Below are positions 14,539 to 35,173 of a stretch of 48,386 nucleotides of DNA, in pieces. Source of the stretch: Candidatus Uhrbacteria bacterium (GTDB lineage Bacteria; Patescibacteriota; Patescibacteriia; UBA9934). Position 1 is the stretch's first letter. Each line of letters opens with the position of its first letter. The stretch covers positions 1-48,386 of the forward strand of contig CALRGY010000007.1 in assembly GCA_943358395.1 (NCBI GenBank), given 5' to 3'. Both the position numbers and the translations under genes were made by a program. The notes beneath the pieces are model-generated. The model had not been told where the DNA came from, did no database searches, and worked only from the letters and a program-made list of their open reading frames with translations.

Positions 14539-15654
14539 CTACGCCCTCGAAACCACCCGCACCGTCCCTGCAGTTGCATCAACCTCCACTGTATCACCAT
14601 CCTGAATCGATTCCAACGCCCCCTTCACATTCGTCACGCACGGCTTTCCTAGCTCTCTGCACACAATAGCGGCGTGGCTCAGAATGCCGCCCCAGAGGGT
14701 GACGACTCCCCCGGCTTTCATCATCAGCGGAAGAAAGTCTGGTGTGGTCATGTCGGTGACGAGAATATCGCCGGTTTCGATATCGGCACCAGCAACATCG
14801 GCGGCAAGAATGACACGAGCACGGCCAGTCACCAATCCTCGAGAACCAATCTGACCGCGCAAAACCCTCGATGATCCTTCGTCTTCATTCATCAGGATCT
14901 GGCAGCGCTCATCGCCGTACGTCGCACCCAACAATCGATTCCAATCAATGAACCAAATGCCAAATTCCGTCGACGTTGCCGTTTCAAAATATCCGCACAA
15001 ATATTCTCCAAAAAATGTCGCACCAAATTCAGTAGTAAGCTTTTCGCGAATAGCAGGATCAGAAACCCGCAGCATCTCCATCACTTCCCGCATATGCGCC
15101 TCTGCCAATGGGCGATCCAGGCTCAAGTTCCAATGCACTCCGTCCCACGAAAACGTCATCGGCTCCATGCCTTCGGTGTAAAAGCCTTGGGTTAATTGGT
15201 TATGCGGCCCCGCAAGCACTTGCCCAAACGCCCCATGCTGGTTCACAACGAAAATCGTACTCCAGGTATTATCGCCCGGGTGCGGCATAAAATCCGCTTT
15301 GTATTTCTCCGGATCAATATCTTGCAATGCAAACCATTCCATCGATTCAGCGATCGATGCCCCTCGTGTTCGTAACTTCGGCAACGCAGGATCAATGGGA
15401 ATCAATCGCAACGCACAAAGCTCATGCCCTCGTGTTTCCAAAAAATCAACGAATTCTGGCGATGAATTCGCTAATGCACTTGCCAAAAATTGTATCGACC
15501 GATTAAACGGCAAACCAATATACGTGTTCAAAACCGCGAGCCGCTCCAGTTTCTCATTATCCTCTTTCCGATGTGCCTCCGAATTCACTAACCCCATCCG
15601 CTGAAACCATTCGGTGAGGGAAATTTGGGTCTTGTAGAGGGTTGGGAGATCCAT
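14539..15654 (-). CDS. stand-alone PEP-utilizer phosphohistidine swivel-domain protein
   Basis: C-term GDILVTDMTTPDFLPLMMKAGGVVTLWGGILSHAAIVCRELGKPCVTNVKGALESIQDGDTVEVDATAGTVRVV; no ATP-grasp motif. Confidence 0.9.
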   Translation of the reverse strand: MDLPTLYKTQISLTEWFQRMGLVNSEAHRKEDNEKLERLAVLNTYIGLPFNRSIQFLASALANSSPEFVDFLETRGHELCALRLIPIDPALPKLRTRGASIAESMEWFALQDIDPEKYKADFMPHPGDNTWSTIFVVNQHGAFGQVLAGPHNQLTQGFYTEGMEPMTFSWDGVHWNLSLDRPLAEAHMREVMEMLRVSDPAIREKLTTEFGATFFGEYLCGYFETATSTEFGIWFIDWNRLLGATYGDERCQILMNEDEGSSRVLRGQIGSRGLVTGRARVILAADVAGADIETGDILVTDMTTPDFLPLMMKAGGVVTLWGGILSHAAIVCRELGKPCVTNVKGALESIQDGDTVEVDATAGTVRVVSRA

Positions 15655-15661
15655 AGTATTT

Positions 15662-17164
15662 TTATGCGCGCTTTACAATCCTCACCACTCCCTTCTCCGC
15701 ATCGACTTCAACAAAATCCCCATCTTTCAAGACTTCAGTCGCGATCTTCGTTCCGATAATACACGGCTTTCGTAATTCACGAGACATGATTGCTGCGTGG
15801 CACAATATACCTCCTTCATTCGTTACAATCGCAGAAGCAATGCGCATGGCGGGAACAAAATCTGGCGACGTCATTGCAGTGACCAAAATTTCACCAGGAA
15901 GAAGCTCTTTGGCATTCCGTCGATCAGGGATGACACGCACAATGCCGCGAACCATTCCAGGAAAAGCAATCTGCCCTTTTAACTCCGAAACCTGATGCTG
16001 GTCTTCATTCGGAATCACAAGTGCCTTCAAGGCATCAATCTGCGATCCATCAACAAGGAACGATGTATGAGGAGCAATAACATACCCGTACCCATTCTTT
16101 GCACGATCAAGGAGAACATCACGATCAACAATAAGCACATTCGCTTTCAGAGAAGCCACGATTTCGTAATACGTCATGTTCAATGCCGCATCCATAGGCA
16201 AAGAAAGCGCTTGAGAAACGTAACGGAATATTGGACGAAGTGCACCGTTCACCACCATCATGTGATCAATATTTTCCGTGCGTAAATACATAAACGCACG
16301 AACAAATGCAATGCGATCCTTCACGTCGAGTGGCAATACTGCTGCCTTGAGTATTGCATCTGCCCGCACCATTTCCGCATCAGCACAATCCAATTGATGC
16401 TTCTGCGTCTCATATTCATTGGGATCGGCGAGCGCATTCAAGCGACCGCGATAATACTCAAGATCAAAAGGCTCGTCGTCGATATTCTGCAACGAAAGAA
16501 CACAATATTTCTTCCAATGACGGCGCAATGCATGCTCACGATTCCCTCCTGGTTGCATATGGAGCTGGAGCAAATCTCGCTGTTCCTGACTTGAAAGCGG
16601 AAGCCGTGTGGGACGATACACGTCCGCCAAAAATGCCTCTACGCGCATCGCGTCATCTTTCCAATATCGCAAAACCTCTGCATCAATCTTCTCTTTAATT
16701 CTTTCGGCAGCAAACCATAAGAATCCTATTTCAAAAAGCGCAATCCAATATTCGCAATGCGCCTCAAGACCCTTGCATACCACCTCAACATTCAATCCGC
16801 GTTTTGGCAGCATGCGAGCCAATTTCTTTGCTGCGCCAACCATTCCGTATAATTCCTTTGTAAGCTTCCGTGCAAACCGCTTGTCGTCATTCATGCTCTT
16901 CCACCACAAGTCCGCACCACGAATATCCAACGTATCAGGCAGATACACGCCCTTCAACGGCTCTCGTCCCGCCTCAAAAAACACAAAATCAATATCCCAT
17001 CGCCGCTTCACCGCCTGCACGGCATAGCGATACCCGTCCATAAAAAACACCACTCGTCTTCGCAAAAACTTTCTTGATAACAGCTCAGAACGCAATAACG
17101 GCTCGTCCTCTGCAAGAAGCTGGGGATCAATATCAAGAAGCGGATTCGTGAATTCCATACTCAA
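15662..17164 (-). CDS. stand-alone PEP-utilizer phosphohistidine swivel-domain protein with long N-terminal region
   Basis: C-term GEILVTAMTSPDFVPAMRIASAIVTNEGGILCHAAIMSRELRKPCIIGTKIATEVLKDGDFVEVDAEKGVVRIV. Confidence 0.9.
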   Translation of the reverse strand: MSMEFTNPLLDIDPQLLAEDEPLLRSELLSRKFLRRRVVFFMDGYRYAVQAVKRRWDIDFVFFEAGREPLKGVYLPDTLDIRGADLWWKSMNDDKRFARKLTKELYGMVGAAKKLARMLPKRGLNVEVVCKGLEAHCEYWIALFEIGFLWFAAERIKEKIDAEVLRYWKDDAMRVEAFLADVYRPTRLPLSSQEQRDLLQLHMQPGGNREHALRRHWKKYCVLSLQNIDDEPFDLEYYRGRLNALADPNEYETQKHQLDCADAEMVRADAILKAAVLPLDVKDRIAFVRAFMYLRTENIDHMMVVNGALRPIFRYVSQALSLPMDAALNMTYYEIVASLKANVLIVDRDVLLDRAKNGYGYVIAPHTSFLVDGSQIDALKALVIPNEDQHQVSELKGQIAFPGMVRGIVRVIPDRRNAKELLPGEILVTAMTSPDFVPAMRIASAIVTNEGGILCHAAIMSRELRKPCIIGTKIATEVLKDGDFVEVDAEKGVVRIVKRA

Positions 17165-18007
17165 TTACGCAATGGCATCTGCTTTCATTTCCATTCCACG
17201 ATACTCCCCCACAATACCGTCATCTTCTAATCGAATCTTCACCATTTCTGTTTCGTTCAAAATTCCGGACTGCAATCCACGATATGTCTCTTCCGAAACC
17301 ACACCATTTCCATGTAAATATGCCAAAAGCGCATCAATCTCAAAGCTATGTCCAACCGCACCCACAATAATTGGACGATCCGGAAAGCTTTTCTTTGCAA
17401 AGGTTCGCAATCGCTCCAATGCCTTTAAAAGATTCTGCGCAACTCCCGTTGGGTTTGGCCCAACTTGTTCCCCATCTATTTTTCCTTCTTCACGAAACCA
17501 TTTGCATTCCGCCTCAAACAATGACGTGCCGCCTTCAAGTAAATGATTTGTGTACGCTGTCGGTTTTCCATCCTTCTGAAACCATCCCTTGTCCATCATT
17601 TCCGTAAGACGAAGGGGAAGATCAATAACAACTTTCGCATTCGGATCTCCATCGGCACGATCAACGACACGCTGTAACGTTCCCGAAAATCCAACATCCT
17701 TCGATGAAGCAGAAAGCTCACTGCGTGGCACCACAATCACATCTTCACGATCAGCAAACGCCGCTTTCAACGCATCGCCATACACTCGCAGCGTGGATCG
17801 CGTTCGTACTTCTGGAGATACTGGTGATTGAAAAATAATCGTACCCGGCGCAGCATTTTCAATAATCTCCGCAATGTCTTTCGCCCGCTCTTTTGCGAGC
17901 TCAACACCAGCATCCGTAATTCCTTGATATTCCACGCTCTGCGGCACATCCTTCGATGGCTTCAAGGAATGACGAGTGATGTATCCATCTGGCTGCTCGA
18001 TTGACAT
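17165..18007 (-). CDS. histidine phosphatase superfamily-like protein
   Basis: GYITRHSLKP...GITDAGVELAKERAKDIAEII...FQSPVSPEVRTRST...VGAVGHSFEIDALL: RHx and late GH motifs. Confidence 0.75.
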   Translation of the reverse strand: MSIEQPDGYITRHSLKPSKDVPQSVEYQGITDAGVELAKERAKDIAEIIENAAPGTIIFQSPVSPEVRTRSTLRVYGDALKAAFADREDVIVVPRSELSASSKDVGFSGTLQRVVDRADGDPNAKVVIDLPLRLTEMMDKGWFQKDGKPTAYTNHLLEGGTSLFEAECKWFREEGKIDGEQVGPNPTGVAQNLLKALERLRTFAKKSFPDRPIIVGAVGHSFEIDALLAYLHGNGVVSEETYRGLQSGILNETEMVKIRLEDDGIVGEYRGMEMKADAIA

Positions 18008-18017
18008 AAAAAATATA

Positions 18018-19418
18018 TTAAAGAATCTTCACTGTTCCATTATCTGCGTTCACCTCAATGATATCACCAGTTTGAATCATCGAACTTCCATGGCGCGTGG
18101 CGGTAATGCACGGAATCTGCAGCTCGCGAGACACGATGGCGGCGTGCGATGTAATCCCACCTTCATCCGTCACAATCGCCGCAGCCTTCTTCATAGCAAG
18201 AACGAAGACTGGCGTTGTATGATGCGTGACAAGAATTTCACCGTGTTCGAGTTCACTCAGCTGATCCGCAGAATGAATCACGCGCGCTTTTCCCTGGACG
18301 ATTCCTCGATACGCGATCATTCCCTTGATTTCTTTGTGTGCAACATTCAAAACCGCAGCAAGATCGGCAGCAATCCGATCATCGGCATCTTTTCCTGTAA
18401 GAATTTCAACAGTTGCATTGTGCGCATACACCACATGAGTCGATCGTTCAGCAACATTCAATGGCAACGATCCATCATACAAAAATGCCAGAATCTCTTC
18501 GTTCAGCAAATTCAATACACACGACAACGACACATTCATTCTTCGCGCCAAATCTTGATAGAACGGTGCAATCAAACAGAAAACAATGCGCGTCAGGTCG
18601 ATTCTCGCATCCCGAAGATGCGTATACAGATGGATAATCTCTATGGTATTTCGCAATGAATCATCGGGACGAATCTCACGAAGAACTTCATTGTATCTGC
18701 GCGATCGTTCCGCGAAATCCGTGCGCATTTTCGCGAGCTCTGCTTCTGGATTCTCAAGATCGGCACGCTGTTTTGTAAAATCATCCATCGACCATATTTT
18801 GTCACCAATCGTGTACACTGGAAGCCAAAAGAAACGTTTCGCATGATCAACGAGTCGTGAATCATCACCAGACGCCGCAATGTCGAGCAAATCCATCCGC
18901 TGTGCCGTCATGGCATTTGTTGTCGTGGGAGTTCCAATAACTTGAAGCCATTCTTCAGCTTTTACAGAGTCGATCATTTCAAGACTCGCCTGAAGTTTTG
19001 CCGCCGTTACACCATCAATCGCTGAAGGAGTAAATGCAAATAATCCCAGCCCCTGTAACCGCGCACAGTATCGCACAAACCAATCCGCAAGCGTTGTCGT
19101 ATGAAGATCAGCGATGTTTGCATCAAAAATCTCCTGACCAAGCACCGTCATATCCGCATTCAACGACTCAAATGACTGTTCAATCGTCGCCTTGTTCATG
19201 CCAAACGTCACTCGCTCGACACCAACCAAGAATTCCATCCATTCATCCTCAAAAAAATAATAATCATATTTCCCTTCACTGGGAATAATAATCGCACTAT
19301 TCATGCGCACCGAGTGATCCTCCGGCAATCCAACGGTAAAAAAGTTCAGAAAGAAGTTCGAAATGCGCTGCACCGAATGCGGTCGTGAAAGAATTTTTGT
19401 CCAGGCGTGTGGGTACAT
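18018..19418 (-). CDS. stand-alone PEP-utilizer phosphohistidine swivel-domain protein
   Basis: C-term GEILVTHHTTPVFVLAMKKAAAIVTDEGGITSHAAIVSRELQIPCITATRHGSSMIQTGDIIEVNADNGTVKIL. Confidence 0.9.
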   Translation of the reverse strand: MYPHAWTKILSRPHSVQRISNFFLNFFTVGLPEDHSVRMNSAIIIPSEGKYDYYFFEDEWMEFLVGVERVTFGMNKATIEQSFESLNADMTVLGQEIFDANIADLHTTTLADWFVRYCARLQGLGLFAFTPSAIDGVTAAKLQASLEMIDSVKAEEWLQVIGTPTTTNAMTAQRMDLLDIAASGDDSRLVDHAKRFFWLPVYTIGDKIWSMDDFTKQRADLENPEAELAKMRTDFAERSRRYNEVLREIRPDDSLRNTIEIIHLYTHLRDARIDLTRIVFCLIAPFYQDLARRMNVSLSCVLNLLNEEILAFLYDGSLPLNVAERSTHVVYAHNATVEILTGKDADDRIAADLAAVLNVAHKEIKGMIAYRGIVQGKARVIHSADQLSELEHGEILVTHHTTPVFVLAMKKAAAIVTDEGGITSHAAIVSRELQIPCITATRHGSSMIQTGDIIEVNADNGTVKIL

Positions 19419-19480
19419 AATTACTCAAGAAGAATCAGAATCTCTAACAGCAGTATTCGCGCACAACTGCACGAATCACC

Positions 19481-20491
19481 CTATATCCGTTTCACAATAG
19501 TCACCACCCCCTTCTCCGCATCCACCTCCACCACATCCCCATCTTTCAGCACCTTCGTTGCAATCTTGGTTCCAATGATGCAGGGCACGCCGAGTTCGCG
19601 GGCAATGATTGCGGCGTGGCAGGTGATTCCGCCTTCATCAGTGACGAATGCAATGGCACGCTTCATGGCGGAGATGTAATTCGGTGTCGTCATCGATGCA
19701 ACAAGAACTTCTCCGGGAACAAAGGCTTCGCAGTCCTTTGATGAACGAAGGACGCGAACAGTCCCATGAGCAACTCCACCATTCGCAATTTGACCGGTAA
19801 TCTCACAACAATCGGTGCTGACGTCTTGCGGCAATACAATGTCAAAACGCTTTTCACATTCTTGCACCGTCATTCCAGGATATAAAACTCCTTGAAAAAA
19901 TACCCAACCCGTTTTGCGTTTCTCGATCTCTGAAGGCGATGGAAGCACGCCTATAATTTCTTCTGCGGTAAGCATCGTTCTCCAATCTGCGTGTTCTCCC
20001 AACATTTCCGCGACAATATCTTGCAGAAAAGCATCCGCAGCCCACGCAACCGTATCAGTCGCCGCACGCGTCGCAACTGCCATGTCCACAAGCTCCGGCG
20101 CAATATCCTGACCCTCTTCACCAAGAACAACGGCGATTGTAAAATTCGGCATAGAGTCAACAATGCGCCGAAGCAGCTCAACGAAACCAATCTCCCGCTT
20201 CTCATCAACAATTGCCCGAAGTTCGCGGCACTGCTGCATGTACCAATCGCATCGTTCAGCAAAAAGCGATGGACGATCCTTGAAATACTGAATCAACCGC
20301 CGCGCATCTTCAGAAGAATCTTCCGAATACCATGCGCTCACACCAACATCGGGTTCATACACAAACATTGGCGCATACGAAGTATTCCCACACGTCACCT
20401 GCGCCAAGCCATCCCGCTCGCCTCGATACCAATACTGCACACACAACACAGAAATATCCCGCGTATACACTTTTATGTACGTCGTGCTCAT
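19481..20491 (-). CDS. stand-alone PEP-utilizer phosphohistidine swivel-domain protein
   Basis: C-term GEVLVASMTTPNYISAMKRAIAFVTDEGGITCHAAIIARELGVPCIIGTKIATKVLKDGDVVEVDAEKGVVTIV; overlaps next gene by 4 nt. Confidence 0.9.
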   Translation of the reverse strand: MSTTYIKVYTRDISVLCVQYWYRGERDGLAQVTCGNTSYAPMFVYEPDVGVSAWYSEDSSEDARRLIQYFKDRPSLFAERCDWYMQQCRELRAIVDEKREIGFVELLRRIVDSMPNFTIAVVLGEEGQDIAPELVDMAVATRAATDTVAWAADAFLQDIVAEMLGEHADWRTMLTAEEIIGVLPSPSEIEKRKTGWVFFQGVLYPGMTVQECEKRFDIVLPQDVSTDCCEITGQIANGGVAHGTVRVLRSSKDCEAFVPGEVLVASMTTPNYISAMKRAIAFVTDEGGITCHAAIIARELGVPCIIGTKIATKVLKDGDVVEVDAEKGVVTIVKRI

Positions 20492-21360
20492 AAGGTCGTA
20501 ACGGATTTACCCCGTCTCTCTATCTCAAGAGAATCATCGGCATTCACGCGAACATGTACCGCTTCGCAATTCTGTATACCTTCTTCTCCGAAATACTCCT
20601 TAAACGCTTTAGCAAGATAATTTTCATGTCCAAAAGCAAGGATTTTAATATGCTTACCACCAAATCCCTCTTTCGCTTTTCTTGCACCAAACCGCGCAAG
20701 GCGAAGAAGTTGCTGAAATTGCGTCTCAAACAATTCATGCGCAGTACTTTGCTCGTTCGGCAATAATCCGCGTTCCCGCAAAATATCAGAATAATGGGCG
20801 AAATTTGCTCCCCAATTTCCCTTATCGTCCTGCAGAACAACTTGCCGAGCCTCTTCCCATGCCGATCGAACAGCAGCATCAACACCACTCCAGTTTATCG
20901 GCGCAAGTTGCGTTGGCGGACTGAAAAGCGAACCCCAAAGCGAACTTTCCGGCTTAAGGGACAGAGATTCTACAACGCGGACTTCCTCCTCGCTCATTCT
21001 TTCCGCCAATGGATTACGGTGGTGCTCTGGAGCGATAATGACGAATCCTTTTCCCTTTGCGATATTCTTATACATTTGCGCAGTTTCTAGTGCTCGCGCC
21101 TGATCACTTGAGGCAAAGAAAAGCGCATCTGCAGCTGGATCCATTTCTCCAAAAAGCTTCTCTGCCTCATGTTGTGCCAACTCAACACCAGCCTCGGTAA
21201 GGTCAGGGAATACTTGCTCTTTTGGATCAATGGGCCGATCTGGATTCTCCGATCCAACGATTGCACTACCACTTCTGTACGCTGCCTTTGAGTGGCGAAT
21301 GAATCTGATATCACCTATCGGTTCACCGTGTGGGACATGTGATATTGCTTCAGGCTTCAT
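20488..21360 (-). CDS. histidine phosphatase superfamily-like protein
   Basis: DIRFIRHSKAAYRSGSA...PDLTEAGVELAQHEAEKLFGEM...LFFASSDQARALETAQMY...ILAFGHENYLAKAF. Confidence 0.82.
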   Translation of the reverse strand: MKPEAISHVPHGEPIGDIRFIRHSKAAYRSGSAIVGSENPDRPIDPKEQVFPDLTEAGVELAQHEAEKLFGEMDPAADALFFASSDQARALETAQMYKNIAKGKGFVIIAPEHHRNPLAERMSEEEVRVVESLSLKPESSLWGSLFSPPTQLAPINWSGVDAAVRSAWEEARQVVLQDDKGNWGANFAHYSDILRERGLLPNEQSTAHELFETQFQQLLRLARFGARKAKEGFGGKHIKILAFGHENYLAKAFKEYFGEEGIQNCEAVHVRVNADDSLEIERRGKSVTTL

Positions 21361-21368
21361 ATAACAAT

Positions 21369-23390
21369 CTACTTCTTAAAAATTCGCACCACACCATTAT
21401 CAGCATCAACTTCAAGCTCATCCCCTGTTGCGATATTCAAGATGACATCCTTATCCGTTCCAATAATACAGGGAATGCCCAATTCTCGGGAGACGATCGC
21501 GGCATGAGACAGCATTCCACCTTGATTCGTAATAATCGCTGCCGCCTTTTTGCACGCCTGGATAATATCCGGCGACGTCGTTTCTGCAACCAAAATTTCT
21601 CCTTTTTCCACTTGCGCAACAGCGGCAGTAATTTTATCAAAATCATCCCAATCGGGAATAAGAACGCGTGCCTTCCCTCGAACTTTCCCTCTATTCGCGA
21701 TTGTTCCTTTGATTGTGTCAGAAATGTCCTGATACAAAGAAAAGAACTCATGAACGAGTCTCAGCGATTCATCGCCGAAAAGCGTTATATCCTGTGATGC
21801 AAAAAAGACGGAGCGGTTTACGATTTCATCTTTATCAACGGTCTTTCCGTTTTTCATCAATTCGAGAACCTCGGAAACACGGTAGTTCGACAATAGTGAT
21901 TCTGGAACATTCGTTTGACGGGAAAGTTTCTTGAGTAAGCCCCGAACATAACCGTTTTCCTCAAAAATAAGCTTATTGAGATGCAAGCGTCCTTCAAGTT
22001 TCAGCGCATCAAATTCCTGCACCGATATAACCATGGATTCTGGCTCAAGAAGATCGGTGTAGAAAAATTCAGTTTTGGAGTAAAAAGAGAAGTGTTCAGA
22101 TGCAAGTCGAAAAAACTTTTCAGCTTCCTCCATGAACACTTCTTCTTGAGTAAGAACAGATTGAAAAAAAGATGTAGACGATGCAATGTACTGCTCAAAG
22201 CCCACCTTGTACGCATCGTACTTCGCCTGTGTTGTATAAAGTTCCTTGCCTTCTTGTAAGGTGTGTACCAACGATTCTTTTGGAAGGAACGACATCCACG
22301 ATGACTCTGTATTCCGCATGCTCAAAACACCAAGCACGTGATAATAGTGAAGAAAAATATCGCTCAGAATGAACAGGAGAGACTTACCCGCAAACATGCG
22401 GACATAGTCGCTCGGATCATAATCCATCTTTTCTACGACAGCATCCTGCATATGTAACGTCGTAATCGGTCTGCTTTGCAAGATGTAAAACTCCCCCGAT
22501 TCCATGCCCCATTCAATGTCGCAGGGGAAGCTGTAATGTTTTTCGATGAGGATACAAAGATTACCGATGGTTTCGATCTGTTTCGTATTCAGCTTTGGTG
22601 CCTCGCGTTTATCCGACGGCACATCGACGGTGACATTTCCGCGCTCTCCACGAACCAACATCGTTTCTTGTTCCGACGTGTAGTTCTCGATGATGCTATT
22701 CGTTTTCTTACTGACGATATACGAATCCGGCGTAACAATTCCGCCGACGATGAATTCGCCGAGGCCCCAACACGCTTCGATGATCATCTGATCATGATCC
22801 TTGGTGACGGGATGAACCGTAAACGCGATACCCGCAACATCGGATTGAATCATCTTTTGAATGACGACTGCAACAGAAACATGCGTGTCTCGCATTCCCT
22901 TTTCCATGCGGTACACGATTGCTCGCGGCGTAAAAAGCGATGCCCAACATTTTTTGACGTTGCCGAGAAGATTCTTCTCCGTTGTGTTCAAATAACTCTC
23001 AAGCTCTCCCGCCCAACTCGCCGTCGACGAATCTTCGGCCGTCGCGGATGATCGAACAGCGACGAATTCGGAATCGAGTGCAGCAAATGCGATGAGAATC
23101 TCCTCTTCAAGATCTTTCGGGAATCGTGCATCGTGAATCAGGTCATGCAACACCCGGGAAGCTCGCTCTACGCTCGCAACATCCTCATAATTCACTTTGT
23201 TCAACTGCGCCTCAACCTCCGCCTTCAATCCCGTCTCTTCCAAAAACCGATCAAACGCATCCCGTAGCACGACAAATCCCGGCGGCACCGGAATCCCCGC
23301 TTGAGTCATTTCTCCCAGCGAAGCGCCTTTTCCACCAGCAAGATGAACGTCGTTTTTGCTTAGCTCCTGGAATGGTTTTACGAATGGCAT
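21369..23390 (-). CDS. PEP synthase/rifampin-phosphotransferase-like dikinase: N-terminal ATP-grasp plus C-terminal phosphohistidine swivel domain, no PEP-barrel
   Basis: LAGGKGASLGEMTQAGIPVPPGFVV, FVAVRSSATAEDSSTASWAGELESYLN, CDIEWGMESGEFYILQSRPITT, and C-term GGMLSHAAIVSRELGIPCIIGTDKDVILNIATGDELEVDADNGVVRIF. Confidence 0.93.
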   Translation of the reverse strand: MPFVKPFQELSKNDVHLAGGKGASLGEMTQAGIPVPPGFVVLRDAFDRFLEETGLKAEVEAQLNKVNYEDVASVERASRVLHDLIHDARFPKDLEEEILIAFAALDSEFVAVRSSATAEDSSTASWAGELESYLNTTEKNLLGNVKKCWASLFTPRAIVYRMEKGMRDTHVSVAVVIQKMIQSDVAGIAFTVHPVTKDHDQMIIEACWGLGEFIVGGIVTPDSYIVSKKTNSIIENYTSEQETMLVRGERGNVTVDVPSDKREAPKLNTKQIETIGNLCILIEKHYSFPCDIEWGMESGEFYILQSRPITTLHMQDAVVEKMDYDPSDYVRMFAGKSLLFILSDIFLHYYHVLGVLSMRNTESSWMSFLPKESLVHTLQEGKELYTTQAKYDAYKVGFEQYIASSTSFFQSVLTQEEVFMEEAEKFFRLASEHFSFYSKTEFFYTDLLEPESMVISVQEFDALKLEGRLHLNKLIFEENGYVRGLLKKLSRQTNVPESLLSNYRVSEVLELMKNGKTVDKDEIVNRSVFFASQDITLFGDESLRLVHEFFSLYQDISDTIKGTIANRGKVRGKARVLIPDWDDFDKITAAVAQVEKGEILVAETTSPDIIQACKKAAAIITNQGGMLSHAAIVSRELGIPCIIGTDKDVILNIATGDELEVDADNGVVRIFKK

Positions 23391-23401
23391 AGCATCAACC
23401 G

Positions 23402-25072
23402 TTAAAGAATTCTTACCGTGGCGTGGTTTGCGCGAACCTCAACCGTTGCGCCGTCAGGAATGCGTGTTGTGGCATTCTTTGTGCCGATAATACACGGCTT
23501 GCCCAATTCTCGCGAGACAATTGCTGCATGACACGTAATCCCGCCTTCGTTCGTCACAATGCCCGCTGCCTTCTTCATGAGCGGCAAGAATTCCGGTCGC
23601 GTCATGCCCGTCACCAAAATCTCCCCTTCATTGAAACGATCAAACTGCGAAACATCCAAAATAATCCGTGCAACACCTTTGGCATATCCCTGGCATGCCG
23701 TTTGACCATTTACCACACTCGTTGACGTGTCAGCACCAAGCCGATCATTATATTCCCGAAGCAATGAGCTTGCTTGCTCACCGCAAATCACCTCAAACCG
23801 ATTCCCCGCAAATGTCATCATAATCCCCTCTTCACGACGTCTCTTAAGCTCTTCAAGAGAAACCAAACCCTTCAGCACATTCGGAACTTCGTCTGGCACT
23901 AAATACTGCACATACATCTTTGGAATCCCCGTCAGTGCCTCAATGCGCATAAGAATTGCGTCAAAAACATGAATGCTCATTAAATTCACCTTTTTCCGAT
24001 ATTCGCGCCAAATCGTTAAACGCTCAAAAAACCATAACGGATTTTCTTTCACCTTTTTCTTACGAACGATATTCTTGATCGCCAGTTCATGATCTTTCTC
24101 GTAGTTCTTCAGATCGCGATATTCCTTCTTCCACGCATCGGAATTCTGTACATGACCCCAAATCTCTTCAACGATATTTTCGTTGGTCATATGCTTGACC
24201 ATTGCGTAATTCGACTCCGTGTAATCAAAATCACGGCGATACTGCTGGACCGCTTCATCGGTTTTCACGTACTGCGTAAGCTTTTCCTTGGTCCAAGTAC
24301 GCGAATAAATATCATCGATAATGTCGAAAAGCCTTCGTTTACGTTCCCCAGAAAACGTCAGCTCCGATGGCGTGGTCAGGATTTGGACGTCATCTGCAGA
24401 TAATGCGTATTCTGCGCAAACTTTCTTGATAATCTCTTGATCAACCCCAACATCAAATGCATCAATCCAAATGCTTTGATTCCAAAAGTTGCGGCACGCC
24501 TGTAAGACGTGTTGCAAAAAGATGCACAGTGTCTCCTGTGAAAACTCTGCAATATCTCCTTCAAATGTTTTTCGGTACAACCCATCAATAATCACCCCAG
24601 CAGCGGAAAATTCTGAATAGAGTTCCTGAAACGCCGATCGCGATGAAAGTCTCGCGTAACATGCGTGTGCGGTGGTACGCATTGCCGTCGCATCCCAATA
24701 TGCGAAAATATAACTTCCCTTGGAATAAATATGCAGAGCACCGAGGGCAAAAGCCTCGTTCCCAGGGATACAATATGTTGCCAAGGCTGATGACGGCGGA
24801 AACATCGTAAACGGCACACATTCACCCTCTTGTTTGTATAGCTCATGTTTTTCAACGGCTATGGCCTGTTGCGGAATAGAGCGATCCAGAATATCCGCAA
24901 TCATGAGTCCATACACAGAACACAACTTCTCGATGGTCTCGAATTTAATGCCGTTCACCTTCCCAAGTGCCAAAGACTGAATAGTATTGCGATTAATCCC
25001 CGTTTCTCGAGCAATATCTGACAAATTCTTCCCCGTTTTCTCAACAATCTTGTCGATTCGGATACGAATCAT
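23402..25072 (-). CDS. XRE/Cro-CI-type HTH regulator fused to a C-terminal phosphohistidine swivel domain
   Basis: N-term MIRIRIDKIVEKTGKNLSDIARETGINRNTIQSLALGKVNGIKFETIEKLCSVYGLMIADIL; C-term GEILVTGMTRPEFLPLMKKAAGIVTNEGGITCHAAIVSRELGKPCIIGTKNATTRIPDGATVEVRANHATVRIL. Confidence 0.9.
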   Translation of the reverse strand: MIRIRIDKIVEKTGKNLSDIARETGINRNTIQSLALGKVNGIKFETIEKLCSVYGLMIADILDRSIPQQAIAVEKHELYKQEGECVPFTMFPPSSALATYCIPGNEAFALGALHIYSKGSYIFAYWDATAMRTTAHACYARLSSRSAFQELYSEFSAAGVIIDGLYRKTFEGDIAEFSQETLCIFLQHVLQACRNFWNQSIWIDAFDVGVDQEIIKKVCAEYALSADDVQILTTPSELTFSGERKRRLFDIIDDIYSRTWTKEKLTQYVKTDEAVQQYRRDFDYTESNYAMVKHMTNENIVEEIWGHVQNSDAWKKEYRDLKNYEKDHELAIKNIVRKKKVKENPLWFFERLTIWREYRKKVNLMSIHVFDAILMRIEALTGIPKMYVQYLVPDEVPNVLKGLVSLEELKRRREEGIMMTFAGNRFEVICGEQASSLLREYNDRLGADTSTSVVNGQTACQGYAKGVARIILDVSQFDRFNEGEILVTGMTRPEFLPLMKKAAGIVTNEGGITCHAAIVSRELGKPCIIGTKNATTRIPDGATVEVRANHATVRIL

Positions 25073-25078
25073 ATTTTA

Positions 25079-25141
25079 TACTAGTTAATATCTGAATAAA
25101 TATAGCCACAAACTACATTTATGTCAAAATACTGACTAGTA
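25079..25141. promoter_or_regulatory. two inverted TACTAGT-type candidate operators flanking the promoter
   Basis: ACTAGT at 25080-25085 and 25135-25140; oriented extended forms TATACTAGTTAA and TGTACTAGTCAG, centres 55 bp apart. Confidence 0.55.
25099..25127 (-). promoter_or_regulatory. promoter of the swivel-domain cluster
   Basis: Minus strand TTGACA (25127-25122), exactly 17 nt, TATATT (25104-25099). Confidence 0.8.
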
Positions 25142-25152
25142 CAGGCATCATC

Positions 25153-27877: not shown

Positions 27878-27912
27878 AAAAACTCGAGGCTCATCATGAG
27901 CCTCGAGTTTTT
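27878..27912. terminator. intrinsic terminator downstream of rpoC
   Basis: AAAAACTCGAGGCTCATCATGAGCCTCGAGTTTTTT. Confidence 0.93.
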
Positions 27913-27922
27913 TCTTGCCTAC

Positions 27923-30900
27923 CTATTCACTCTCCTTCTCCTCCCCCGTCATCTCCTTTCCAATCCCTGGACCCATGGCAGCAATTTCTGCATCGAGTGC
28001 CGATGGAAGAACGGATGTTCTCATGGCTGCTTCGCCGAAGTTTGCCAGTTCTGGGGAGCCTTCCAGTCCAAAGCCGGTTCCGGCTGGGATAAGGCGACCA
28101 ATGATGACGTTTTCCTTCAACCCTTGGAGCTCATCAATCTTTCCGGTAACTGCTGCGCCAATAAGCACGCGAGCGGTTTCCTGGAAGGATGCGCTGGAAA
28201 GCCAGCTTTCCGTAGAAAGAGAGACTTTCGTTACACCAAGCAATAAGTCCTCATACTCTGCCAATGTTCCACCCTTTGCCAACGCGCTGTCCTGTTCATC
28301 AAGCAATGTAGCACGCTCGATGATTTCTCCAGGAAGCAAATCTGTGTCGTTTGGATTCGTCACGCGCACACGGCTCAACATTTGGCGCACAATCACCTCG
28401 ATGTGCTTGTTGTTGAGCTTCTGACCCTGCGACGCGTAAATAAACTGAATTTCCTTAGACAAATATCGCTGCACAGCATCCCGTCCCTTTGCAGAGAAGA
28501 GTGCTTGCAAGTCCAAGTGGCCATCCGTCAATGCGTCACCTGCTGTGACCTCGTCGCCTTCTTTCACGAACATGGTGTAGCCCTGCGGAATAATGTACTC
28601 GCGAACTTTATCCCCTTCGTGCACCACAACCACCGATGTTTTCCCAACAGACTTCACTGTGCCTTTCACATCACACGGTACAATCTCCCCATCAACCTTT
28701 GTGCCCAGAACATCGCCTTCGCGCACGCTGTCACCCACCGCAATCTTCATCTTCGCACCACGGCCAAGCGTGAACGTCTTCTCATCGACTGCGCGATACC
28801 GAATCTTCACAATCTTTTGCCCAGGCATGGTGTCCATCATCTTCTTGCCAGTACCCGCCTGCACAATTGTCCGTTCTGCTTTTTCAATTTCTACAGCACC
28901 CGCAACTTCCGTCATGATTGCCTTTCGCTTTGGCAGACGTGCCTCAAACAATTCTTCAACGCGTGGCAACCCTTGCGTAATATCTTTTCCTGCCACACCT
29001 CCAGTGTGGAAGGTACGCATCGTGAGCTGCGTTCCTGGTTCACCGATGGATTGCGCCGCCATAATACCCACCGCAACACCAGGCTTCACCATTTTGTTGT
29101 GTGCTAAGTCGTATCCGTAACACTTCATACACACACCGCGACGAACGCGACACGTCATCACCGAGCGCACATGAGCCTCGAGTAATTCCTTACCTGTCGC
29201 TTTGATGGCACGAATGTGTACTTCGGTAATCAGGTCGTTCGCTTTCACAAACGCCTTCTTTTCCCCGGGCACCTTAATGTCGGAGAGTGCGACACGACCC
29301 AAAATACGAATCAACAACGGCTCGCCAATCTCGTCCGACTCTTCCTTGGTCAATAGCACACCCTTATCGTCACCACAGTTTTCCTCACGCACCACCACGT
29401 CTTGCGCAACATCAACCAAACGACGAGTCAAATATCCAGCGTTTGCCGTACGCAATGCTGTGTCGGTAAGACCTTTACGCGTACCGTGAGAAGAAATGAA
29501 GAATTCCAGCACGGAAACTCCCTCTTTAAAAGACGACTTCACTGGCAATTCAATAATGTCTCCAGACGGTGATGACTTCAGCCCAATCATACCAATCATC
29601 TGCGTGAGCTGGCCCCATCCACCACGCGCACCAGATTCAATCATGGTGTAGGCAGAGCTTTCGTGTGGAAGCGAATCCTTACTAATATCTGCGATTCTGT
29701 CCTTGATTTCTGTCCAAATTTTAATGATCTGTGTGTGGCGTTCGCTCTGTGTGAGCAATCCTTGGCTAAAGTAATCTTCAACTTCACGTACGCGTTTGTC
29801 GCCCTCCGCAACCAACGCTGGCTTTTCCGTGAGCGTTGGCAGCCCTGCCATTGCCCAAGAGTATCCAGACAATGTGGCGTACTTGAACCCAAGATCTTTC
29901 AAGTTGTCCAAAATAGTCGCAGTAAATTCCTGACCATGGAACTCCAATGTATCGCGAATAATGTTTGCAAGCTGCTTCTTTCCAAGAATTTCGTTCTGGA
30001 AGCCAATGCTTGGCGGGAATTGCTGGTTAATGAGAATACGGCCAGGAGTCGTAATGAGCATCTTCCCGTCGCGACGAATACGAATCCACGTTTGTGGCGT
30101 AATCTTTGCCTCATTCATGGCGTAGAGCACCTCATCTTCATCCGCGAATGTTTTCATCTTCTTTTCATCTGGTTCCGTGTCTGTACTCGTTAAGTAGAAC
30201 GATGCCCATGCAATATCTTTTCCTGGCGTTGCCACTGGACCACCAAAGGAAGGCTTCAACAAGTTACGGATGGAAAGCATCAACTCTTCTGCTTCTTTCT
30301 TCGCCTCCGTTGTGAGCGGTACGTGAACGGCCATCTGGTCACCATCGAAGTCTGCGTTATACGCGTCACAAACGAGAGGGTGGATTTGAATTGCCTTTCC
30401 TTCGATGAGTGTTGGACGGAACGCCTGAATACCAAGACGGTGCAAGGTCGGCGCACGGTTGAGTAAGACGTATGAGTCTGCAACAACTTCTTCAAGAATG
30501 TCCCACACTTCTGGGCGATCGGATTCAAGGAATCGGTTTGCAGAACGAATGTTGTGGACGTATTCGCGAGCAATCAGCTTGCTAATCACGAATGGACGGA
30601 ACAATTCGAGCGCCATCTTCTTTGGAATACCGCATTGATGAAGCTTGAGGTGTGGACCGACAACAATCACCGAACGACCAGAATAGTCGATACGCTTTCC
30701 AAGCAAGTTCTGACGGAAACGACCTTGCTTCCCCTTCAAAATATCTGCCAACGACTTCAATTGACGCTTCTTTCCGGTTGCGGCAATCACGGTTTTGCTT
30801 TGACGAGCACTGTTGTCGATAAGCGCATCCACTGCCTCTTGTAACATGCGCTTTTCGTTACGCGTAATCACTTCTGGTGCATTCAAAGAATACAGCCGGC

Positions 30901-31942
30901 GCAAACGATTGTTGCGGTTAATCACACGGCGGTACAAGTCGTTCAAATCAGACGTTGCAAAACGACCACCGTCCAACGGCACCATTGGGCGCAAATCTGG
31001 CGGGATTACCGGCAACGTGCGGAGCACCATCCATTGTGGCTGAATGGTGTTCTTCTCTAGGCTCTTAAACAGTTTCAACCGGCGCATAATGCGCTCGTAC
31101 TTCGCGGAAGATGTTGTTGCTGCAAGCTCTTCGGTAAGCTTCACGACTGTTTCGGGAATATTAATGCGTTCCAAGAGCTTCATGAGTGCCTCTGCACCAA
31201 TACCGGCATCAAAAATGTGCCCGTATCGCATAGACCAATCGTGATACGTCGCCTCAGAAATCACACGCAGCGGCGTAAGCTCCTTCAAGTCTTTATCGAC
31301 TTGAATAAAGTCTTGCTCTAATTCATCCAGCCGTTCTGCTGCAGATTTCTCGATGCGTTCAATTTCTGATTTTATCCACTTTTTCTCTGCACCTTCCTTC
31401 TCTTCTGCACGCTGAATATCACGTTTTGTTTCACCAGCAATCATCTGCTTCTTTGCACGATATTCCTCTTTCACCTGCTCTACAGTTTGTGCCAACGCCG
31501 CTTCATTGACGTCGGTAATAATGAAGCTCGCAAAATACACCACCTTTTCCAAGGTTTGCACACCCATATCGAGCATGGTGCCGATTTTTGACGGCACACC
31601 GCGCAAGAACCAAATGTGCGTAACCGGGGAAGCAAGTTCAATGTGCCCCATGCGCTCACGGCGCACAGAAGCCTGTGTGACTTCCACGTTACATTTGTCA
31701 CACACAATTCCCTTGTATCGAATTTTCTTATATTTCCCACAGTAACACTCCCAATCTTTTGATGGTCCGAAAATCTCTTCTGCAAACAACCCCTGCTTTT
31801 CTGGCTTTTGCGTGCGATAGTTAATGGTTTCCGGCTTGCTTACTTCGCCGTAGCTCCAGCTTCGAATCACTTCTGGTGAAGCAACCTTCAACCGGATCGA
31901 ATCGAAATCTGTGGATTTTAATGTGTCGAATTTGGTGGCCAT
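27923..31942 (-). CDS. rpoC: DNA-directed RNA polymerase subunit beta'
   Basis: [16 protein letters not shown] catalytic loop; [23 protein letters not shown] zinc site. Confidence 0.99.
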
Positions 31943-31954
31943 AATGGTTTTACG

Positions 31955-34900
31955 TTAGGCGCGACGTGCATGACGATCCTCACCAATTTCCAATTTTTTC
32001 CCGTTCTTCAACAGCTCAACGTCCAAACCAAGGCCCTTCAATTCGCGGCAAAGCACATTGAACGATTCTGGGATATTCACCTTGGTAATCACATCGCCCT
32101 TAATAATCGCTTCGTACGCCTTTGCACGCCCTGGAACGTCGTCGGACTTAATGGTGAGAATTTCCTGCAATGTGTGCGCTGCCCCATATGCCTCCAATGC
32201 CCACACCTCCATTTCTCCAAAACGCTGACCACCGAACTGCGCTTTTCCGCCCAACGGCTGTTGAGTAATAAGCGAATACGGCCCAATAGAACGCTGATGC
32301 ATTTTGTCTTCCACCATGTGGTTCAGCTTGATCATGTACATGATACCGACTGTGACCTTGTGGTGAAACGCTTCACCGGTACGGCCATCATACAAATGCA
32401 ACTGACCATCTTCTGGGTACCCTGCTTTCTTCAGCTCGTCCTTAATGTCTTGATCCTTCACACCCGCAAGTACAGGCACAGCCACTTTGTAGCCCAATGT
32501 TGACGCCGCAAGACCAAGGTGAACTTCAAGAATCTGACCAAGGTTCATACGAGAAACCACACCAAGCGGGGTAAGCAACACGTCTACCGGCCGACCGTCC
32601 GCGGTAAATGGCATGTCTGCAAACGCAACGACTTTTGAAATAACGCCCTTGTTTCCGTGGCGACCAGCAACCTTATCACCCACCTGCAGCTTCCGAAGAT
32701 CTGCAATAGTGACTTGGATTGATGTAATAACACCAGGGGAAAGATTATCTCCCGCTTCTCGGCTAAACACCGTAATATCAACAACTTTTCCCTTGCGCCC
32801 ATGTTCCAAGTACAGTGAGGAGTCGCGAACATCGCGGGCTTTATCGCCGAAAATAGCACGAAGCAGCTTTTCTTCAGCAGACAATTCTGTCTCACCCTTT
32901 GGTGTGATTTTTCCTACAAGAATGTCGCCAGACTTTACCTCGGCACCAATACGGATAATGCCTTCAGCATCAAGATTCTTCAGCTTCTCTTCTGAAACGT
33001 TTGGAATATCACTCGTAACCAATTCTGGCCCAAGTTTAGTATCGCGAACATCAAGCGTGAGATGTTCTAAGTGAATCGTGGTGAACCGATCGTCCTGCAC
33101 CACGCGCTCGGAAACAATCACCGCGTCTTCATAGTTGTAGCCATCCCAGCTCATGAACGCCACGCGCATGTTCTGCCCAAGTGCCAGCTCACCGTTTTCA
33201 ACAGATGGACCGTCGGCAAGCACATCACCCTTCTTCATCTTCATGCCCGGAAGCACCACGGGGCGCTGCGTAATAGCCGTTGAAGCATTCGATCGTAAGT
33301 ATTTATTGAGAGTGTACGTTTTTTCACCAAGTTTTTTGTATGTCATCGTGATGTTTGCCCCATCAACTGCCGTGACTTCACCATCTTCTTCCGTTACCAG
33401 CACGTGACCGGAATCGAGCGCAGCACGGCGCTCCATTCCTGTTCCAATCACCGGTGATTCTGGGCGAATTGGTGGCACTGCCTGACGCATCATGTTCGTT
33501 CCCATGAGTGCACGCGTTGCGTCGTCGTGCTCCAAGAATGGAACAAGAGCAGTACCGATAGACACGATTTGCGTCGACGAAACATCCATGAAATTGATGT
33601 CAGTCGCAGGAACCAATCGTGGATCTGCAAACTTACGCGCCTCGACGTATTCCGCAATAATGTAACCATCCTTATCCAAAGGAACAGTCGCTGGACATGT
33701 TGTGGACTTCTCTTCCAAGAATGCATTCACGTACACAATATCGTTTGTGACGCGCGAACGACCCTTTTCCTGCACCACCTTGCGATACGGTGTTTCAATA
33801 AAGCCGTACGCATTCACACGAGCATAACTCGCTAAGTGACCAACCAATCCAATGTTTGGTCCTTCTGGCGTAGCGATCGGACAGATACGACCATAGTGCG
33901 TAGGGTGAACGTCGCGCACTTCAAATCCGGCACGTTCACGCGTCAAACCACCCGGGCCCATCGCGCTCAAGCGGCGCTTGTGCTCCAGCTCTGCGAGCGG
34001 ATTCGTTTGATCCATGAACTGCGAAAGCTGAGAGGACATGAAGAATTCACGCACCGCGCCAATCACTGGGCGTGCATTGATCAATTTTCCTGGAGTAAGC
34101 GAATCAATTTCCGTGGTGCTCATGCGGTCGCGCACAATGCGCTCCATACGTGCCATACCCACACGGAAACGGGACTGCAGCAACTCACCAACCGCTCGCA
34201 CGCGGCGATTCCCGAGGTGATCAACATCATCTGCTTCTTCCTGGCTAATGTTCAAGCGAATAATCTCACGAATAATCGCCACCAAATCTTCCTTTGTAAG
34301 AATACGATTCTCTTCCTTCGCGACCTCTTCGTCTGTTCCCTCCAAACCAAAGCGCAAATTAAACTTATATCGTCCAACGGCACCTAAATCGTATCTGTCG
34401 TAATTAAAGAACATGGCATGAATCAAGCTGCGGGCGTTATCTGCCGTCGCAAGATCGCCTGGGCGAATGCGCTTATATACTTCTTTCAACCCTTCTTCCT
34501 CATTGCTCGCTGCATCCTTTGCAAGCGTATTTTCAATGTAACGAATGCTTGGATGAATATCGATATCTGCAAACAGTGGCGCGATTTCTTCATTTGTTGA
34601 AAAACCAAACGCGCGTAATAACGACGTTACCGCTACCTTACGCTTGCGATCGATTTTGACCCAAATCACGTTTTTTGGATCTGTTTCAAACTCAAGCCAC
34701 GCACCACGATTTGGAATAATCTTCGCACCGTAGTGGCGACGAGCACGAATCACTTCTGCGGTAAAAAAGGCCCCCGCAGAACGCACAAGCTGGGAAACAA
34801 TCACACGTTCCACACCGTTCACAATAAATGTTCCTCGTGGGGTAACCACCGGCAAATCACCCAAGTAAATCTCTTGTTCCTTCACCACATCCGTACGAAG

Positions 34901-35173
34901 GTTCTTCAAACGTGTTTTTACACGGAGTGGCGCTTCGTACGTTACGTTCTTTGCGCGGCTCGTGACTTCATCAAATTTCGGCTCGTCTAGGTAATAATCA
35001 CCAAGAGTAAGCTCTAAATCACGTCCCATGGAGTCGCGAATAGGAGTAACTTCGTCGAAAAGCTCACGGATGCCGTGTTCCAAGAACCATGCGTATGCAG
35101 ACTTCTGAACCTCAATAAGGTCTGGCAAGTCCATCGCATCACGAAGTGGAGTGAAATACTTGCGAGTCATCAT
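31955..35173 (-). CDS. rpoB: DNA-directed RNA polymerase subunit beta
   Basis: SSQLSQFMDQTNPLAELEHKRRLSAMGPGGLTRERAGFEVRDVHPTHYGRICPIATPEGPNIGL. Confidence 0.99.
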   Translation of the reverse strand: MMTRKYFTPLRDAMDLPDLIEVQKSAYAWFLEHGIRELFDEVTPIRDSMGRDLELTLGDYYLDEPKFDEVTSRAKNVTYEAPLRVKTRLKNLRTDVVKEQEIYLGDLPVVTPRGTFIVNGVERVIVSQLVRSAGAFFTAEVIRARRHYGAKIIPNRGAWLEFETDPKNVIWVKIDRKRKVAVTSLLRAFGFSTNEEIAPLFADIDIHPSIRYIENTLAKDAASNEEEGLKEVYKRIRPGDLATADNARSLIHAMFFNYDRYDLGAVGRYKFNLRFGLEGTDEEVAKEENRILTKEDLVAIIREIIRLNISQEEADDVDHLGNRRVRAVGELLQSRFRVGMARMERIVRDRMSTTEIDSLTPGKLINARPVIGAVREFFMSSQLSQFMDQTNPLAELEHKRRLSAMGPGGLTRERAGFEVRDVHPTHYGRICPIATPEGPNIGLVGHLASYARVNAYGFIETPYRKVVQEKGRSRVTNDIVYVNAFLEEKSTTCPATVPLDKDGYIIAEYVEARKFADPRLVPATDINFMDVSSTQIVSIGTALVPFLEHDDATRALMGTNMMRQAVPPIRPESPVIGTGMERRAALDSGHVLVTEEDGEVTAVDGANITMTYKKLGEKTYTLNKYLRSNASTAITQRPVVLPGMKMKKGDVLADGPSVENGELALGQNMRVAFMSWDGYNYEDAVIVSERVVQDDRFTTIHLEHLTLDVRDTKLGPELVTSDIPNVSEEKLKNLDAEGIIRIGAEVKSGDILVGKITPKGETELSAEEKLLRAIFGDKARDVRDSSLYLEHGRKGKVVDITVFSREAGDNLSPGVITSIQVTIADLRKLQVGDKVAGRHGNKGVISKVVAFADMPFTADGRPVDVLLTPLGVVSRMNLGQILEVHLGLAASTLGYKVAVPVLAGVKDQDIKDELKKAGYPEDGQLHLYDGRTGEAFHHKVTVGIMYMIKLNHMVEDKMHQRSIGPYSLITQQPLGGKAQFGGQRFGEMEVWALEAYGAAHTLQEILTIKSDDVPGRAKAYEAIIKGDVITKVNIPESFNVLCRELKGLGLDVELLKNGKKLEIGEDRHARRA

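Follow-up and report, generated by a model that had tools for sequence, protein, structure and literature searches.

The window, the whole 48,386-nucleotide stretch of Candidatus Uhrbacteria DNA analysed here, contains an 80-bp gap between cca and a gene for an HTH-swivel protein, and the question it raises is whether this protein regulates its own transcription. A preliminary description had read the gap as a near-consensus promoter bracketed by inverted TACTAGT sites about five helical turns apart, a geometry expected for a dimeric autorepressor. Comparison with relatives makes it highly probable that the gap is an autoregulatory promoter, where one dimer would sit on a palindrome, another on a second, weaker site, and the two together would repress the operon.

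The promoter is present on the minus strand as described (Table 1). TTGACA-17-TATATT agrees with the consensus at 11 of 12 bases, is the top promoter-like site within its 11-kb region, and is one of two in 48 kb that reach at least 11/12 with a 16–18 bp spacer. The two ACTAGT words were also found, at 25135–25140 and 25080–25085, with centres 55 bp (5.2 turns) apart; since ACTAGT is itself palindromic, only single flanking bases give the two an opposite orientation.

Table 1. Features of the regulator locus in the window, and operator sites at the promoters of orthologs.
Feature	Genome	Position	Strand	Sequence	Remarks
Intergenic gap between cca and HTH-swivel gene	Window	25152–25073	minus	GATGATGCCTGTACTAGTCAGTATTTTGACATAAATGTAGTTTGTGGCTATATTTATTCAGATATTAACTAGTATAAAAT	followed by ATG
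Upstream operator	Window	25133–25150	minus	TGATGCCT-GT-ACTAGTCA	whole site TGATGCCTgtACTAGTCA
-35 hexamer	Window	25122–25127	minus	TTGACA	5 bp downstream of upstream operator
-10 hexamer	Window	25099–25104	minus	TATATT	17-bp spacer from -35
Putative second operator, left half-site	Window	25080–25087	minus	TAACTAGT	matches 7/8 positions
Regulator: Cro/C1-type HTH (HTH_26), rifampin-binding-like domain of RPH, PEP-utiliser phosphohistidine swivel	Window	23402–25072	minus
PPDK_N ATP-grasp + swivel protein	Window	21369–23390	minus		11 bp downstream of regulator gene
Histidine-phosphatase (RHG) protein	Window	20488–21360	minus		catalytic R, H, R, H kept; Pfam below cut-off
Swivel protein (PEP-utilisers)	Window	19481–20491	minus
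RPH-like domain + swivel protein	Window	18018–19418	minus
Second RHG histidine-phosphatase-like protein	Window	17165–18007	minus		invariant residues; no Pfam match
Further swivel protein	Window	15662–17164	minus		swivel similarity; NCBIfam
Further swivel protein	Window	14539–15654	minus		swivel similarity
Upstream site	G415			TTTTGACTAGTAAACTAGTCAAAAGTATTGACA	0 mismatches; 6 bp before -35
Upstream site	G786			TTTTGACTAGTTTACTAGTCAAAATGCTTGACA	0 mismatches; 6 bp before -35
Upstream site	G064			TGATTAGTagACTAGTCA	1 mismatch; 6 bp before -35
Upstream site	G038			TGCCTAATgcACTAGTCA	2 mismatches
Upstream site	G328			TGCATAGCatACTAGTCA	1 mismatch; 7 bp before -35
Upstream site	G377			TGCATAGTtaACTAGTCA	1 mismatch; 7 bp before -35
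Upstream site	G897			TAACTAGTttATTAGTTA	4 bp before -35
Upstream site	G880			TGACTAGTaaACTATGCA	23 bp before -35
Downstream site	G328			TGACTAGTAAAGTAGTCA	between -10 and ATG
Downstream site	G377			TGACTAGCTAACTAGTCA	between -10 and ATG

Orthologs were searched with the HTH and the middle part of the protein as query, because the swivel domain alone is common. Ten HTH-carrying orthologs were found, two in the window's order (G064 and G038) and eight elsewhere in the class (G415, G786, G328, G377, G897, G880, G308, and G889); a further match, G802, is truncated by a contig end and stands outside the ten. The gene is rare: of the 73 genomes searched in the order, three have it, counting that of the window, and among 381 genomes of the phylum only G308, apart from the window, matches at E < 1e-40. 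Most pairs of orthologs share 22–49% protein identity, and the close pairs are G415/G786 (73%) and G308/G889 (84%).

Conservation upstream of orthologs had been set beforehand as the test that could overturn the proposal. A palindrome of consensus TGACTAGTNNACTAGTCA adjoins the promoter in eight of the ten orthologs, and the other two carry a different palindrome. The perfect sites of G415 and G786 reveal an 18-bp unit with the architecture TGACTAGT-NN-ACTAGTCA. The TACTAGT pair thus does not form a single operator, as each ACTAGT belongs to a separate 18-bp site of this type. In the window, the right half of the upstream operator is perfect and the left half has decayed, with four of the 16 consensus positions off; the half-site ACTAGTCA occurs three times in the whole genome. 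Judged by these comparisons of sequence, the putative operator is real and conserved.

The palindrome is also nearly unique to these promoters. We searched 18 genomes for it with up to three mismatches, including six of the eight orthologs that carry it (G415, G786, G328, G377, G064, and G038). The best genome-wide match lay at the HTH gene in all six, with a second match of two mismatches in G377, and in G415, G786, G377 (both sites), and G038 there were no matches within three mismatches elsewhere. None of the ten control genomes that lack the HTH gene had a match better than three mismatches. The window's own genome has no match within three mismatches because the left half has decayed, and G308 has a three-mismatch match at a place other than the HTH gene. 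A matrix built from the orthologs only ranked 25133–25150 first of about 48,000 window positions (11.0 bits, versus 7.5 for the next). Leave-one-out matrices likewise gave a site of the regulator promoter rank 1, both in the window and in each of the eight orthologs; in G328, G377, and G897 this was the downstream site, followed by the upstream site at rank 2.

Second sites downstream of the -10 occur in four orthologs, at 63 bp (G328), 64 bp (G377), 52 bp (G897), and 71 bp (G880) from the upstream site, and those of G897 and G880 are weaker than those of G328 and G377. Helical phase is not kept throughout, as the 71 bp of G880 illustrate. No downstream site was found in G415, G786, and G064, and none of standard form in G038. 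The bracketing noted in the preliminary description is thus a recurrent design of these promoters but not a universal one. In the window, the full 18-bp frame of the downstream site (25070–25087) overlaps the start codon and lacks the right half; in this register the two centres are 63 bp (six turns) apart. Scored as a full 18-mer the element ranks 80–188, which is not significant, and it was rejected as a full operator; scored as a half-site it ranks 14 of 96,758 and is probably a weak site.

Two orthologs connect the operator to the HTH protein. G308 and G889 share a family with G897 and G880. Their HTH has the changes A21S, R22Q, and K43W and contains SEISQETG...GVWF; in the other orthologs, the S of SQ is an A, and GVWF is replaced by G[IL][KR]F. 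Their promoters are preceded by TGTAATGAAATCATTACA and TGTAATAAAACCATTACA, respectively, which are 8-2-8 dyads, instead of TGACTAGTNNACTAGTCA. The joint alteration of operator and HTH speaks for binding by the HTH protein; as G308 and G889 are close relatives, it counts as one event. A conserved palindromic operator at the regulator's own promoter is what characterises autoregulated repressors, and the HTH protein very likely controls its own operon through this palindrome.

Could two ACTAGT words have arisen by chance in an AT-rich intergenic stretch? The window has 31 pairs of repeated 6-bp palindromes within 80 bp, and about 12% of 80-bp shuffles contain one of some kind; such a repetition is not rare per se, and relatives were therefore needed to decide. 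ACTAGT itself is rare in the window's genome (912,413 bp in 28 contigs), which has 11 copies of it and five of TACTAGT, two of each inside the gap, and at least two ACTAGT appeared in only 0.08% of dinucleotide-preserving shuffles of the 80 bp. The rarity stems from that of TAG and CTA words; CTAG is not depleted in the window (24 seen, 27 expected under a Markov model). The remaining ACTAGT sites of the genome lie mostly within or next to coding sequence, and no second promoter of the same type was found at them, although not all were inspected closely. The decisive evidence that the site is real is its conservation at ortholog promoters, which, with the first rank among about 48,000 positions in the leave-one-out scan, rules out a chance origin of the upstream site and makes coincidence as an account of the pair exceedingly improbable.

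The way the site works, and the protein that reads it, could also be construed differently. The regulator might be an activator or a dual regulator, with the upstream site recruiting RNA polymerase and the downstream site an occasional repressing addition. The upstream site is invariant, lies 4–7 bp before the -35 in seven promoters including that of the window, and, centred near -50, could serve activation too; moreover, no clear -35 box was recognised at the regulator promoter of G038, and activator-dependent promoters often lack one. Yet the promoters of the window, G328, G897, G786, G308, and G889 match the consensus at 11–12 of 12 bases, so that an activator should be unneeded, and the downstream sites of four orthologs suit repression, which leaves activation unlikely. 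A repressor of the TrpR/HisR family is a far less probable binder. Its case is that the palindrome and the Escherichia coli TrpR motif TGTAcTnGTnnACnAgTACA have the 14-bp core ACTnGTnnACnAGT in common (PMC9413887) and that the genome encodes one PF01371 protein (G000, C1:72639). The outer arms differ, however (TG-ACT versus TGT-ACT), those of the palindrome being one base shorter (TG/CA versus TGT/ACA), the HTH protein is unrelated to TrpR/HisR, and the ACTAGT palindrome is restricted to the promoters of HTH-swivel genes and gives way to another sequence where the HTH is altered. The PF01371 protein probably reads another motif, as the sequence ahead of the gene that encodes it, TTTACTACGGTAAA, corresponds to the published HisR consensus TTTA-N6-TAAA (PMC9413887). 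Neither this consensus nor the 20-bp TrpR motif describes the palindrome, and a TrpR/HisR operator was rejected. The match before the TrpR/HisR-family gene (L036 1450–1470, on C1) is an observation of its own and suggests that the HisR-like repressor of this genome is separately autoregulated.

We thus favour autoregulation through the palindrome. Of the dimeric autorepressor proposed earlier, the autoregulation is borne out by conserved operators at orthologous promoters; repression is what we infer, because the promoters are near-consensus and downstream sites occur. A regulator dimer would bind the 18-bp palindrome, which lies just before the -35 with its centre some 50 bp from the start point, and the second, weaker site between the -10 and the start codon would lie about six helical turns away. 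Two dimers, one per site, could then bridge or flank RNA polymerase and so repress the near-consensus promoter; repression, possibly with bridging, is the likeliest mode of control. The outcome would be negative feedback on the whole operon of split-RPH and phosphatase genes, which either phosphorylation of the swivel or a ligand of the RPH-like domain would relieve. Whereas the window has two RHG genes inside the operon, an RHG gene is divergent from the regulator gene in G415, G786, G064, G328, G377, and G880; in several relatives the palindrome sits between the operon and this divergent gene, and it may control both.

In the regulator, HTH_26 (PF13443) scores 41 bits in the window (cut-off 22), 51 in G377, and 45 in G328. 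The AlphaFold2 model (pLDDT 87) has RPH-Lm as its best Foldseek match (5fbu, E 2e-13; whole-chain TM only 0.46), and the family profile matches RPH-Lm across the rifampin-binding and swivel domains (E about 1e-28). A RIF-binding-like domain is thus followed by a His swivel, as in RPH and HpeHI, and the GGITCH motif of the swivel is intact in the window. The adjoining gene, which is probably in the same operon, encodes the ATP-grasp partner (PPDK_N, E 2.7e-101), as is also the case in G064 and G415. Residues R22, H23, R89, and H245 are invariant in seven RHG proteins of the cluster, of which those of G328, G377, and G064 alone score above the Pfam cut-off. Similar arrays of swivel proteins to that at 14539–25072 occur in relatives in the class.

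This combination of domains allows for a phosphohistidine switch, in which the ATP-grasp neighbour would phosphorylate the swivel His, the RHG phosphatase would remove the phosphate, and the resulting state, with or without a ligand in the RPH-like domain, would set the grip on TGACTAGTNNACTAGTCA; we put this forward tentatively, as a possibility on the doubtful side. The swivel motif GGxxCH is kept in the window, G064, G415, G897, G308, and G889; in G328, G880, and the split regulator of G038, the His motif has degenerated or disappeared, which argues that phosphorylation is not the sole input across the family. In G038 (L150 8049–10332), the HTH and the middle domain form one gene, followed by a swivel gene with the catalytic His replaced.

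Autoregulated HTH regulators are a known kind, to which the operator and the HTH plus split-RPH architecture appear to add forms undescribed in the literature searched. Autoregulated Cro/C1 (XRE)-type repressors with palindromic operators have the same type of HTH (HTH_26), an 18-bp dyad at their own promoter, and sometimes a second bracketing operator; here, the operator is TGACTAGTNNACTAGTCA and the effector part is an RPH-like domain with a phosphohistidine swivel. HpeHI, CreHI, PpsAB, and RPH likewise combine a RIF-binding-like domain and a His swivel in one protein with an ATP-grasp in a separate neighbouring gene (PMC12167813, PMC4844700); in the two-component dikinase HpeHI, HpeH forms the substrate half and a separate ATP-grasp protein the other (PMC12167813). 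Unlike in these dikinases, the HTH here is fused ahead of the HpeH-like part, and the operon also encodes RHG phosphatases and several swivel proteins. The SixA/PTS-Ntr system also has an RHG-type phosphatase alongside phosphohistidine carrier domains (PMC6282199, PMC7948535), whereas the carriers here are swivels of the PPDK/RPH type and the His_Phos_1 sequence similarity is weak. The literature searched yielded no paper on an HTH fused to a split-RPH (HpeH-like) module and nothing relevant on transcriptional operators of such tiny-genome bacteria. Operators in these bacteria are hardly described, and at this locus the sequence reveals a regulator together with its 18-bp operator and the probable target operon. 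The HTH and HpeH-like module unites DNA binding with a phosphohistidine carrier; if the switch reading were true, it would be a one-operon signalling relay made of PEP-synthase/RPH parts in a very small genome.

A perfect inverted repeat, GATTCG-TATC-CGAATC, covers codons 1–6 of the regulator gene (25055–25070) and shares the 8-2-8 register of the operators; among the orthologs, those inspected around the start codon showed no such repeat at the equivalent place. In the window, the cluster is close to rpoB-rpoC (27923–35173), and in G308 it is immediately next to them (L149 1–6342). This could reflect chance or a long-standing gene order, but the middle domain is similar to the one in rifampin phosphotransferase. 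Directly after rpoC, there is a strong terminator-like hairpin of 16 pairs (27878–27912).
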